From: Streptomyces sp. NBC_00341 | GTDB taxonomy: Bacteria > Actinomycetota > Actinomycetes > Streptomycetales > Streptomycetaceae | Length of the DNA stretch: 64,000 nucleotides | NCBI RefSeq assembly: GCF_041435055.1 | Contig: NZ_CP108003.1 | Coordinates: 124,001-188,000 of the forward strand | Direction of reading: 5' to 3' | Shown: piece after piece, positions 30,101-36,100 of the stretch | Layout of the letters: each line of letters begins with the position of its first letter | Numbering within the stretch: position 1 is the first letter of the stretch | Program-made: the position numbers and the translations under genes | Notes under the pieces: model-generated | Seen by the model: the letters and a program-made list of their open reading frames with translations, nothing else | What the model was told of the DNA's origin: nothing | The model's database searches: none

Positions 30101-33100
30101 GCCACCCTGGTCTTCGACCACCCCACCGCCGCGGTACTCGCCGACTTCCTCGTCGACCGGCTGCTGGGCACCGAGCAGAGCCCCGAACGGGTCGAAGCCG
30201 TCCACGCGGCTCTCGACGAACCGGTCGCGATCGTCTCGATGGGCTGCCGCTTCCCCGGCGGCGCCACGGACCCGCAGAGCCTGTGGCAGGTGATCTCCGG
30301 AGCGGCCGACGCCATCACCCCGTTCCCCGCCGACCGAGGCTGGGATCTGGACGCCCTCGACGCCGCAGGGTCCGCCTTCACCCGTGAGGGCGGCTTCCTG
30401 TCCGGTGCCGCGGACTTCGACGCCGCCTTCTTCGGCATCTCGCCGCGCGAGGCCCTCGCCATGGACCCGCAGCAGCGGCTGCTCCTCGAAGTCGCCTGGG
30501 AGTCCCTGGAGCGTGCGGGCATCGCCCCGCTGTCCCTGAAGGGCGACAAGGTCGGCGTCTTCGTCGGCGCCGGCAGCTCCGGCTACCTCAGCCGGGTGAA
30601 CGACGTGCCCGATGGGGTCGGCGGCCACCTGATCACCGGCAACTCGGGCAGCGTGATGTCCGGCCGGATCTCGTACGCGCTCGGGCTGGAAGGCCCGGCC
30701 GTCACCGTCGACACGGCCTGCTCCTCCTCGCTCGTCGCCCTCCACCTCGCCGTGCAGGCGCTCAGGTCGGGGGAGTGCTCACTCGCCCTCGCCGGCGGTG
30801 TCACCGTCATCGCGGGCCCGGACGCCTTCATCGACTTTGCCCACCAGGGCGGACTCGCCACCGACGGCCGCTGCAAGGCGTTCTCCGACGACGCCGACGG
30901 CACCGGCTGGAGCGAGGGCGTCGGCCTGCTCCTGGTGGAACGCCTCTCGGACGCGCAGCGCAACGGCCACCAGGTGCTGGCGGTCGTGCGCGGCAGCGCG
31001 GTCAACCAGGACGGCGCGTCCAACGGACTGACGGCGCCGAACGGTCCCTCCCAGCAGCGCGTCATCCGGCAGGCCCTCGCGAACGCGCGGCTGGAGCCTG
31101 CGGACGTGGACGTGGTGGAGGCCCACGGCACGGGCACCTCGCTCGGTGACCCGATCGAGGCGCAGGCCCTGCTCGCCACGTACGGCCAGGACCGGCCCGA
31201 GGACCAGCAGCCGCTGTGGCTCGGCTCGATCAAGTCGAACATCGGGCACACGCAGGCCGCGGCGGGTGTCGCGGGCATCATGAAGATGGTGCTCGCGCTG
31301 CACCACGCCGAGCTGCCCAGAACGCTGTACGCCGACACTCCGTCCTCGCACGTGGACTGGTCGGCAGGCGCGGTGGAGCTGCTGGCCGAGACCAGGCAGT
31401 GGCCCCGCGGCGAGCGCCCGCGCCGCGCGGGTGTGTCCGCGTTCGGAGTCAGCGGCACCAACGCGCACGTGATCGTCGAAGAAGCACCCGCCGCCGCTCA
31501 GTCGCCGGTGTCGGCTGCGGTCTCCACCCTGCCGCTGGTGCCCTGGGCCGTGTCGGCACGCTCGACGGAGGGTCTGGCCGCACAGGCCGGCCGACTCGCC
31601 GCTGCCGTGACGGACCTGGACACGACCGACGTCGGCCTCTCTCTGGCCACCACCCGCTCGTCCCTGGAACACCGCGCGGTCGTCCTCGGCAGCGACGCCG
31701 GGGCACTCCGTACGCGACTGGAAGCACTGGCCGCCGGTGAACCGACGCCGGGAATGGTGTCGGGCGTCTCCCGGACGGCCCCCACGGGTTTCGTGTTCTC
31801 GGGTCAGGGTGGTCAGCGGGTCGGTATGGGACGGGAGTTGGCCGAAGCCTTCCCGGTGTTCGCAGCCGCGTTGGATGAGGTGTGTGGGCACTTCGACGGT
31901 CTGCGTGAGGTGATGTTCACCGATGCGGAGGCGTTGAAGTCAACGGGTTGGGCGCAGCCCGCGTTGTTCGCGGTCGAGGTGGCGTTGTTCCGGCTGGTGG
32001 AGTCGTGGGGTGTCAGGCCGGATTACCTGGTCGGTCATTCGGTGGGTGAGCTGGCTGCCGCGCATGTGTCCGGGGTGTTCTCGCTGGCGGACGCCTGCAA
32101 GCTGGTGGCCGCGCGTGCCGCGTTGATGCAGGCGTTGCCTGCTGGTGGTGCGATGTGGGCGGTACGGGCGACGCTCGACGAGGTCGCGCCGTTCCTGGTC
32201 GATGGTGTCTCCGTGGCTGCGGTGAACGCTCCGGGTCAGGTCGTCCTGTCGGGTGCCCGTGAAGCGGTCGAGGCGGTAGCGAGTGGTCTTGCTGACCGGC
32301 AGGGGCGGTGGCTGGAGGTCAGCCATGCGTTCCACTCGGTGCTGATGGACCCGATGCTGGACGCGTTCCGTGCGGCGGCGAACTCGGTTACGTACGAGAC
32401 TTCGCGCATCCCGATCGTCTCCACCCTGACGAGTGAGCCGGTCACCGAGTTCACCGCGTCGTACTGGGTCGACCAGGTCCGGGGGACTGTCCGGTTCGCC
32501 GACGCGATCACCCACCTGAAGTCCCTGGGTGTTGGGCGGTTCCTGGAGCTGGGCCCGGATGCGGGTCTGGTGGGTGCGATCAGTGAGGCGGATGAGGACG
32601 CGCTCGTGGTGGCGGCGCTGAACCGTAAGCAGTCCGAGCCCGCCACCGCCGTCGAGGCACTGGCCCGGCTCTGGGCCGATGGCGCCGACGTCGACTGGGC
32701 GGCGTTCTACGCACCCACCGGCGCCCGCACCGTCGACCTGCCCACCTACGCATTCCAGCACCAGCGCTACTGGCTCGACGGCGCGCCCGGTGTCTCGGAC
32801 GCCGGTGCTCTCGGGGCCGAGCCGCTCAAGCACCCGCTGCTCAGCGCGGCGGTGGAGCTCTCCGACGGCGACGGGCACGTGTTCACCGGCCGGATCTCCG
32901 CCCGCACCCACCCGTGGATCGCCGAGCACCAGGTCGCGGGAGAGGCGATCTTCCCCGGCACCGGATACGTGGAACTCGCCGTCCGTGCCGGTGACCATCT
33001 GGCCTGCGACCGGATCGAGGAACTCGTCCTGGAGGCCCCGCTGGTCCTGCCGGAACGGCAAGCGGTCCAGTTGCAGGTCATCGTCGACCACGCGGACCCG

Positions 33101-36100
33101 GCCGGCAGCCGTTCGTTCCGCATCAGCTCCCGCGTCGGTTCCCGCAGCGATGAAATGCCGTGGATTCGGCACGCGAGCGGCGTCCTCGGCACCGCGTCCG
33201 GACGACAGCACACCGGACTCGCCGCCTGGCCGCCCGCCGGGGCCACCGCCGTCGACATCGACGGCCACTACGCGGCCCGCGCCGTCGGCGGCTTCGGCTA
33301 CGGAGACGTCTATCAGGGGCTGACCGCCGTCTGGCGGCGGGACGGGGAACTGTTCGCCGAGGTCGTCCTCGGTGACGAGTTCCGCGGCGAGGCAGACCGG
33401 TTCGGCCTCCACCCCGCCGTGCTCGACGCGGCGCTCCAGGCCCTGTCGTACGACGAGAGCGCCGCAGGAGCGGGCCGGCTCCCGTTCGTCTGGAGCGGCA
33501 TCACCCTGCACGCGAGCGGCGCGTCCCTGCTGCGCGTCGCGATCACCCCGGGCACGGCGGAGGGCGCGTACACCGTCACCGTCGCCGACACCTCCGGCGA
33601 ACTCGTCCTGACCACCGACGCGCTGACCCTGCGCCCCTACGACGGCGCCCCGCTCTCCGCCCCCAAGGGGGACGGGACGGCCAAGGCCCCCGAGGCAGAG
33701 GCGGACGCCCCGTCGCCACGCCCCGTCGCCCGCCGCAAGGCCGCGGCCGCCGTGTCCGGAGGCGGCCAGGCACTCCGCGACCGGCTCGCCGCGCTGCCCC
33801 GGAACGAGCAGCGCGACGACCTGCTGGAGATCGTGCGCCGCCGCGCCTCGATCGTGCTCGACCAGCCCCGTACGCAGACGATGAACGCGGAGCTGCCGTT
33901 CCGCGATCTCGGCTTCACCTCCCTCACCGCCGTCGAACTGCGCGAGGCGCTCGCGGAGGAGACCGGCCTGCGGCTGCCCGCGACGCTCGTCTTCGACTAT
34001 CCGACGCCCCGCGCCCTGGTCGACCACCTCCGCGACGAGCTGCTCGGCGGGCCCGAACCCGCCACCGCACCGGCCCGGTCCGGTGCGACCGTGGGCCGCG
34101 ACGACCCCATCGCCATCATCGGCATGAGCTGCCGGTACCCCGGGGGCATCCACACCGCCCACGACCTGTGGCGGCTCGTCGCCGACGGCACCGACGCGAT
34201 CTCCGGCTTCCCGACCGACCGGGGCTGGGACCTGGACGCGCTGTACGACCCCGACCCGGACAATCCGGGCACCTGCTACGTCCACGAGGGCGGGTTCCTG
34301 CACGACGCGAGCCAGTTCGACGCCACGTTCTTCGGCATCAGCCCGCGTGAGGCCGTCTCCATGGACCCCCAGCAGCGGCTGCTCCTGGAGATCTCCTGGG
34401 AGGCGATGGAACAGGCCGGCCTCGACGTCCACACCATGCGTGGCAGCAGCACCGGCGTCTTCGCCGGTGTGACCTACCAGGACTACGGCGGCATGCTCGC
34501 GGCGGCCAAGGAGAGTTCCGAGGGATTCCTCGGCACCGGCAACTCGCCCAGCGTCCTGTCCGGCCGGGTCGCGTACTCCTTCGGTCTCGAAGGCCCGGCG
34601 ATCACCATCGACACGGCCTGCTCCTCCTCCCTGGTCGCGCTGCACTCGGCATGCCAGGCACTGCGGGAGGGCGACTGCACGATGGCGCTCGCCGGCGGTG
34701 TGACGGTCATGTCCACCCCGATCTCGCTGATCGAGTTCAGCCGTCAGCGCGCACTCGCCGAGGACGGCCGCTCCAAGCCGTTCTCCGACGACGCCGACGG
34801 AGCGAGCTGGGGCGAGGGCGTGGGCATGCTGCTCCTGGAGCGGCTGTCGGACGCACGCGCCAACGGCCACCAGGTGCTGGCGGTGGTACGCGGCTCCGCC
34901 GTGAACCAGGACGGTGCGTCGAACGGCCTCACCGCCCCCAACGGCCCGTCGCAGCAGCGGGTGATCCGGCAGGCGCTGGCCAACGCGCGGCTGGCCTCCT
35001 CGGACGTGGATGTGGTCGAGGCGCACGGCACGGGTACCTCGCTCGGTGACCCGATCGAGGCGCAGGCCGTGCTCGCCACGTACGGTCAGGACCGGCCGGA
35101 CGACGCTCCGCTGTGGCTGGGCTCGATCAAGTCGAACATCGGCCATGCGCAGGCTGCGGCCGGTGTGGCTGGTGTGATCAAGATGGTGCAGGCGATGCGG
35201 CACGGGTTGATGCCGAAGTCGCTGCATTTGGGTACGCCGTCGTCGCATGTGGACTGGTCGGCGGGTGCGGTGGAGCTGCTGGCCGAGGCGCGGGAGTGGC
35301 CGCGTGGTGAGCGGCCGAGGCGCGCGGCTGTGTCGGCGTTCGGGATGAGCGGGACGAACGCCCACGTGATCCTTGAAGAGGTGGAAGACGCACCGGAGGA
35401 GACGGAGGCCGGAGAGACGATCTCCCAGGCACCGTCCGTGGCGCCGTGGATCCTGTCGGGGCGGAGCGCTGCCGCGCTGCGGGGCCAGGCCGAGGCGCTG
35501 CGTCCGCTGGCGGACGGCGCCGATCCGGTGCGTGTCGGGTGGTCGTTGGCGTCGTCCCGGGCGCGGTTCGAGCACCGGGCCGTCGTGGCGGGGGAGTTCG
35601 GTCCGGGGCTGGCCGCGTTGGCGGCGGGCGAGCCCGCCGGGCAGGTCGTCACCGGGCTTGCAGCTCCCGTCGGCCGTACCGCGTTCGTCTTCCCCGGTCA
35701 GGGCGCGCAGTGGGCCGCCATGGGCGCCCAGCTGCTGGAGTCCTCCCCGGTCTTCGCACAGGCGGTAGTGGAGTGTGAGTCGGCGTTGTCCGCCTATGTG
35801 GACTGGTCGTTGACGGATGTGTTGCGTGGTGTGCCGGGTGCTGCGTCGTTGGATGCGGTGGATGTGGTGCAGCCGGTGTCGTTTGCGGTGATGGTGTCGT
35901 TGGCGGCGTTGTGGCGGTCGTTCGGTGTGGTGCCGGCGGCGGTGGTGGGGCATTCGCAGGGTGAGATCGCTGCGGCGTGTGTGGCTGGGGTGTTGTCGTT
36001 GGAGGATGCGGCGCGGGTGGTGTGCTTGCGGAGCCGGGCGATTGCTGCGGTGGCGGGTGCGGGCGGTATGGCGTCGGTGGCGGCGTCGGTGGAGCGGGTG

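Follow-up and report, generated by a model that had tools for sequence, protein, structure and literature searches.

The DNA analysed here, referred to as the window, is a 64,000-nucleotide stretch (positions 124001-188000) of a 255,797-base contig in the 9.06 Mb genome of Streptomyces sp. NBC_00341. Genes of a modular polyketide synthase (PKS) occupy contig positions 89796-189774, with a separate PKS gene at 206019-214082. Hidden Markov models built from the cluster's own domains, which also set the domain borders, resolve the PKS into a loading module, whose ketosynthase (KS) has an active-site Gln, and 20 extension modules. The subject of this study is extension module 14 (M14), which combines KS, acyltransferase (AT), dehydratase (DH) and acyl carrier protein (ACP) domains but has no ketoreductase (KR). 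From its observed architecture, conservation, ratio of nonsynonymous to synonymous substitution rates (dN/dS) and ACP change we infer, as the probable overall picture, a stable inherited KR-less module that leaves a ketone at C15, where a hemiketal with the C19 oxygen would form; the KR would have been excised, the DH (DH14) not left to decay, and the ACP altered so as to shield the ketone.

Module 14 and its gene

M14 is the third module of a five-module gene (window positions 21104-45211, forward strand, as are all features below), a single open frame encoding 8035 amino acids. The gene covers M12-M16 of the 20, in the order KR, KR, DH without KR, KR with methylmalonyl AT, and DH-enoylreductase (ER)-KR. 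An earlier, sequence-only reading of this DNA had called it gene C, with modules C1 and C3; these are gene E, M12 and M14 here. In the protein, the M14 domains span residues 3036-3456 (KS), 3557-3831 (AT), 3908-4207 (DH) and 4230-4313 (ACP), and the next KS begins at 4332. By profile match, the KS (30209-31471) carries TACSSS and EAHGTGT, and the AT (31772-32596) has HAFH, the malonyl type. The DH (32825-33724) was located by profile match and modelled with AlphaFold2; it is followed by a linker (33725-33790) and the ACP (33791-34042), the latter again a profile match. No KR profile match was found between DH and ACP, where only 22 residues separate the two profile matches, as against the 245 positions of the KR profile. 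The sequence-only reading was correct in its coordinates and in describing KS-AT-DH-ACP without KR, and its linker of about 50 residues also holds if the DH is taken to end at its last conserved strand.

As that reading also noted, the catalytic His and Asp of the DH are present, the former (codon 32927-32929) in the HxxxGxxxxP motif (HQVAGEAIFPG) and the latter (33425-33427) in DxxxQ/H (LHPAVLDAALQ), and YGDVYQG (33299-33319) stands where YGPxFQG, part of the canonical GYxYGPxF, is expected. The LPFxW motif is intact as LPFVW, the double-hotdog fold is retained, and no KR of the same module is available to supply a substrate. Since the YGDVYQG substitution lies within a clear DH homologue (48% identity to PDB entry 6obv), it bears on activity and not on membership of the fold family.

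Upstream of M14, the M12 KR (24521-25207; LDD, B type) would be the source of the hydroxyl providing the ring oxygen, and the M13 KR (29024-29755; no LDD) that of a hydroxyl inside the ring. Downstream lie, by profile match, M15 (34097-38650), with KS-AT(methylmalonyl)-KR-ACP, and M16 (38714-44911), with KS-AT-DH-ER-KR-ACP, which belongs to the conserved context described below.

Recurrence and conservation of KR-less dehydratase modules

The M14 DH-ACP junction recurs in Streptomyces sp. A1277 (locus L076), G128 and G145 (a draft contig), with 88%, 82% and 68% identity over DH-ACP, respectively. It is therefore due neither to chance nor to misassembly, and an assembly artefact is ruled out as the source of the missing KR. 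By protein search, at least 22 full-coverage DH-ACP matches, the window counted, occur in at least 19 of 199 genomes of the same genus, a lower bound among the matches listed, with 9 candidates scored per genome. The 21 non-window matches were fetched and all have a DH directly followed by an ACP; 19-59 residues separate the two profile matches over all 22 junctions. The sequence-only reading had called the architecture unusual: the KR-less DH module is real, but in view of its recurrence that word has to be qualified. A class-wide search of 394 genomes gave, among the matches listed, at least six further KR-less DH modules from other genera, a single genus accounting for five. At L156-L160, from one genus outside that of the window, the KR-less DH modules have methylmalonyl ATs, and in L159 and L160 they close the open frame. 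A scan of named genomes yielded at least 80 loci; six of these span the whole query, one of the six being a duplicate (L096 of L044).

As far as the fetched stretches reach, the order KR, DH-only, KR with methylmalonyl-type AT, DH-ER-KR is shared by 14 loci, namely the window, G128, L076 and eleven others, and in all 14 family loci read the AT after the KR-less module is of methylmalonyl type (YASH or YGSH with GHSQGE). The eleven others (L030-L033, L035-L037, L039, L040, L077 from S. iranensis and L090 from S. rishiriensis) show 41-49% identity to the window over DH-ACP. Like the window, all eleven keep the DH His and Asp and lack the ACP Asp discussed below; unlike it, all eleven have Leu for the Pro of LPFxW and retain YGP. 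This sister group may be linked to marginolactones of the azalomycin/niphimycin type. G128 matches the window in domain order over five consecutive genes, whereas its loading and early genes differ from those of the window and lie after the five. The 140 kb G128 stretch (C2, 2880001-3020000; L019-L025) encodes 18 extension modules, the KR-less one being the 12th, as in notonesomycin, provided that the order starts with the loading genes.

Overall, the comparison set 33 KR-less DHs, all distinct in sequence, against 169 KR-paired DHs from the same data; DH matches of fewer than 270 profile positions, identical sequences and 17 DHs whose module tail was unseen were left out, while near-copies stay in this and the ACP comparison. 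One alignment (A1) contains 16 KR-less sequences out of 22 known at that stage, and another (A2) 50 DHs, made up of the window, 27 other KR-less and 22 KR-paired sequences. The catalytic His is present in 33/33 KR-less and 164/169 KR-paired DHs, and the catalytic Asp in 32/33 and 169/169, the exception being Thr in L086. The Arg equivalent to EryDH4 Arg275, placed by its LxLR motif, is likewise kept in 33/33 and 164/169. The docking Phe is found in 28/33 KR-less DHs and is unchanged across the 15 family DHs. The Pro of YGP is present in 28/33 KR-less and 163/169 KR-paired DHs; the clade to which the window belongs (window, G128, L076, L026) has D, E, Q or E there in all four members. Between window and G128, dN/dS is 0.327 for DH14, compared with 0.355, 0.235, 0.289 and 0.409 for the four KR-paired DHs covered, M6, gene F and the separate gene being unpaired.

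The AlphaFold2 model of the M14 DH has an ordinary DH fold, with a mean predicted local distance difference test score of 91.7. The nearest solved structure is the fluvirucin DH 6obv (48% identity, template modelling (TM) scores 0.87/0.91); the model lies closest to ordinary DHs, those of fluvirucin and rifamycin leading. The structural comparison called for by the sequence-only reading thus places an ordinary fold nearest, while the pyran-forming AmbDH3 ranks behind at 39-40% identity. The decay which that reading envisaged finds no support, in view of residue conservation and dN/dS, the predicted fold also being kept, and DH14 looks maintained. Since its dyad, ACP-docking residues and fold are all retained, it probably still does something.

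A change is also evident in the ACP. In the LGFTSL motif of the M14 ACP (33917-33922), Thr replaces the Asp preceding the phosphopantetheine Ser. In a table covering 29 of the 33 KR-less modules, with identical ACPs and modules without KS in frame left out, Asp occupies this position in 198 of 204 KR-module ACPs vs 13 of 29 from DH-only modules. Other residues are found in 16/29 DH-only, 6/204 KR and 2/6 modules with neither domain (Fisher p 1.7e-12, relatedness ignored). Among the KR-less modules of the window's family, T, S or A precedes the Ser in 14 of 14 complete cases, and T also in G145; Asp is found in 28/28 KR-module ACPs counted from those frames. The ACPs with T, S or A are those of the window, L026, L030-L033, L035-L037, L039, L040, L076, L077, L090 and G128. 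Outside the family Asp is kept in 13/15 KR-less modules, so that a general rule equating absence of KR with absence of this Asp is not supported there; the four ACPs read at L156, L158, L159 and L160 all keep it. A docking study couples this Asp both to Arg275 in the DH and to an Arg in the KR (PMC3422181); its loss may mark release from, or protection against, reductases, shielding the ketone.

The M14 linker region, with flanking residues, includes an ARRKAAA block similar to the linker between KR and ACP in reducing modules. An RR pattern is present in the linkers of 27/29 DH-only modules, 135/204 KR modules and 4/6 modules with neither domain, and in 1289/5000 random stretches; for some of the DH-only modules the RR sits in the ACP, outside the linker block. 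As a scar of KR excision the block is only weakly suggestive. The KR deletion of the sequence-only reading is, weakly, compatible with the linker; in an ancestor, the stretch from the DH to the KR-ACP linker, KR included, would have been excised. In Streptomyces rochei NRRL B-2410 (L086, 4366-5256) the KR-less DH without catalytic Asp (HPALLTAALHA) looks decayed, and its linker keeps LRGLVRAPR, resembling a KR C-terminal tail, possibly the result of a fresh KR excision.

Predicted product and competing explanations

With beta-carbons numbered from the carboxyl terminus, the formula 3 + 2 x (N - k) gives C15 for M14 of 20 and C19 for M12. M14, in a synthase of the large hemiketal-macrolactone class, would extend the chain with malonyl and leave a beta-ketone at C15; the hydroxyl set by KR12 two modules earlier, at C19, would capture this ketone as a six-membered cyclic hemiketal. 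Loss of the ACP Asp modelled in reductase docking would keep neighbouring KRs away from the ketone, and DH14 would either hold and steer the keto-diol chain or act as a scaffold. The simpler product of the sequence-only reading, an unreduced ketone closing on the hydroxyl from two modules earlier, is well supported by parallels with PM100117 and notonesomycin.

The M14 type of module is already in print; a literature search on the phrase KS-AT-DH-ACP listed nothing on KR-less DH modules. According to passages on PM100117/PM100118 (PMC4763440), GonP5 (8461 amino acids, modules 11-15) has, like the window gene, five modules, the third of which, module 13, contains a DH without KR. As in the window PKS, the following module (M14 there) has a methylmalonyl AT and the synthase has 20 modules overall; the shared layout is a DH-only module third of five, then a methylmalonyl AT module, after which the window and its relatives have DH-ER-KR. 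The KR-less module is 13 of 20 in PM100117, which computes to C17, vs 14 of 20 (C15) in the window. GonP5 is likened to the window gene by its published description, and the word 'hemiketal' is absent from the text of the PM100117 paper. In notonesomycin, as described in parts of PMC7081687, module 12 of 18, in Nbc40, carries a 'redundant dehydratase', like window M14 six modules before the end, and computes to C15, at the edge of the hemiketal ring, although the synthase has 18 modules compared with 20. The structure of this product is known, and C-16, C-17 and C-18 sit with their neighbours in a six-membered hemiketal; its hemiketal carbon would, by our own inference, be C15 or C19.

Several points weigh against this interpretation. 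The ketone and hemiketal proposed for M14 are taken from the products of known relatives and not from its own. The notonesomycin passages state neither the absence of KR in module 12 nor the hemiketal carbon. Polyene hemiketals are called spontaneous in a passage of PMC8621364 and the PM100117 authors, in the part of PMC4763440 concerned, call involvement of their KR-less DH unlikely, so that no enzyme is needed. Sister clades show erosion of LPFxW, with Pro and Trp each kept in 22/33 KR-less DHs, and the Pro of HxxxGxxxxP is missing throughout a clade of four. The 33 sequences do not count as independent cases. Among the 15 family DHs, whose tree has a length of 4.6 changes per column, 62 of 278 columns are invariant, including the His, the Asp, the HP pair before it, the YGP Tyr, the LPF Phe and the Arg, which makes retention of the dyad weak proof by itself. 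KR-less DHs fall in several clades, requiring 9 changes by parsimony with 2 forced by the starred branches (7 and 2 on a smaller tree); a single origin is not supported and their histories may differ. Finally, ACP14 has lost the partner that the docking model gives to the DH's own Arg, which speaks against DH14 acting on its own ACP.

A rival explanation, to which we give a substantial chance, if somewhat below even, is that the hemiketal forms spontaneously and the DH is an inert relic holding the module together, its dyad kept structurally or by chance. The printed statement on polyene spontaneity (PMC8621364, in part), the doubts in the PM100117 passages (PMC4763440), the eroded LPFxW (Pro 22/33, Trp 22/33) and the S. 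rochei DH without Asp, with its KR-tail-like linker, all fit it; an inert domain accords less well with His in 33/33 KR-less DHs when it is missing from 5 of 169 KR-paired DHs, with the docking Arg in 33/33, and with a DH14 dN/dS resembling that of other DHs. In demurilactone and thailandin, for which parts of the published accounts (PMC9673147, PMC6273641) give the ring-ketone module an intact-looking KR, the ring forms independently of a KR-less DH module.

Conversely, the KR-less DH may be a repurposed hemiketal synthase, a minority view that we consider doubtful: its His and Asp would hold the beta-keto, zeta-hydroxy chain and close the C7 oxygen on the C3 ketone on-line, masking the ketone before extension, with loss of the ACP Asp as a matching change that keeps reductases away. 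In our numbering this closure would join the same two positions as AmbDH3 (5o15, 5o16), which shares the DH fold and dyad with DH14 and makes a six-membered oxygen ring; unlike the KR-less DH14, AmbDH3 dehydrates before closing a tetrahydropyran, as passages of PMC4979870 describe. The irumamycin authors speculate, in the portion of PMC11672594 concerned, that a DH may mediate hemiketal formation, their module 12 DH, predicted to be inactive as a dehydratase, standing at another chain position than M14; an excerpt on marinolide (PMC10301374) leaves a dual-function DH open.

Two further explanations retain dehydration, and both are improbable. A neighbouring-module or free KR might reduce the M14 ketone and DH14, which retains its dehydratase catalytic marks, then form an ordinary alkene; cross-module enoylreduction is reported for azalomycin in part of PMC9899208. 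This sits poorly with an ACP14 lacking the Asp that the docking model pairs with KRs, and with the passages on notonesomycin, which has a hemiketal at the place that corresponds to its counterpart of M14, module 12 with the DH called redundant. Equally slim is the chance that DH14 acts at long range on the chain of M13 or M15, whose ACPs keep Asp. Its docking residues are kept while its own ACP has lost Asp, and a long-range DH is reported, by a reference title, for iso-migrastatin; against it, notonesomycin C-17, the M13 equivalent, retains a hydroxyl or sulfate in the passages available.

Least likely of all is the set of reactions offered by the sequence-only reading as alternatives, namely a vinylogous dehydration, an oxa-Michael addition or a shift of the double bond, acting on the keto chain. 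DH folds can cyclise, as parts of the AmbDH3 paper (PMC4979870) document, and the DH14 model aligns to 5o15/5o16 with TMq 0.80-0.82; but the pyran synthase mark given there, replacement of the DH Asp by His or Asn, is absent since DH14 keeps Asp, and without a KR no enoyl is available for an ordinary oxa-Michael step. The trans-AT enoyl isomerase marks given in a section of PMC11672594, hydrophobic residues for the Pro of HxxxxxxxxP and the Q/H of DxxxQ/H, are also lacking, with FPG and DAALQ kept. Isomerising cis-AT DHs, per the same source, carry no trans-AT-type diagnostic motif change, so that motif absence leaves a bond shift possible, though the passages on PM100117 and notonesomycin describe no such step. 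The 5o15 alignment places Val of AmbDH3 at the Tyr of YGP, which DH14 keeps, so that this mark of an AmbDH3-type dehydratase-cyclase is missing as well. The Val reportedly matters.

Neighbouring genes and wider significance

The AT domains of the window genes at 7107-21047 and 21104-45211 show synonymous divergences from G128 of about 0.55-0.86, roughly double those of most KR and ACP domains nearby (for the larger part 0.22-0.47, exceptions reaching 0.96), a pattern that resembles swapping or conversion of AT segments between modules. Beyond the window end, the separate PKS gene at contig 206019-214082 (82019-90082 in window numbering; L005/L006) has a coenzyme A (CoA) ligase-like start, ACP-KS-AT(methylmalonyl)-DH-KR-ACP and a thioesterase-like end. 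It resembles GonP8, the CoA-ligase PKS proposed, in the passage of PMC4763440 concerned, for the naphthoquinone part of PM100117. Beside the PKS, L005 1931-16816 holds glycosyltransferases, deoxysugar-type genes and two genes resembling flavin adenine dinucleotide-dependent aromatic hydroxylases, gene types that would suit a glycosylated macrolide bearing an aromatic moiety.

In the passages concerned, two cluster papers dismiss such DHs as redundant or not involved, and the points for specialists to follow up are the conservation of the dyad in KR-less DHs and the ACP change. If DH14 and its relatives are maintained and catalytic, the hemiketal rings of this class of antifungal macrolides would be set by an enzyme and not spontaneously. 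A KR-less DH together with an Asp-less ACP would, if the interpretation is true, constitute a sequence rule predicting ketone and hemiketal positions from genomes. The ACP part of that rule, which can be checked on clusters with known products, would help engineers to keep a ketone unreduced.

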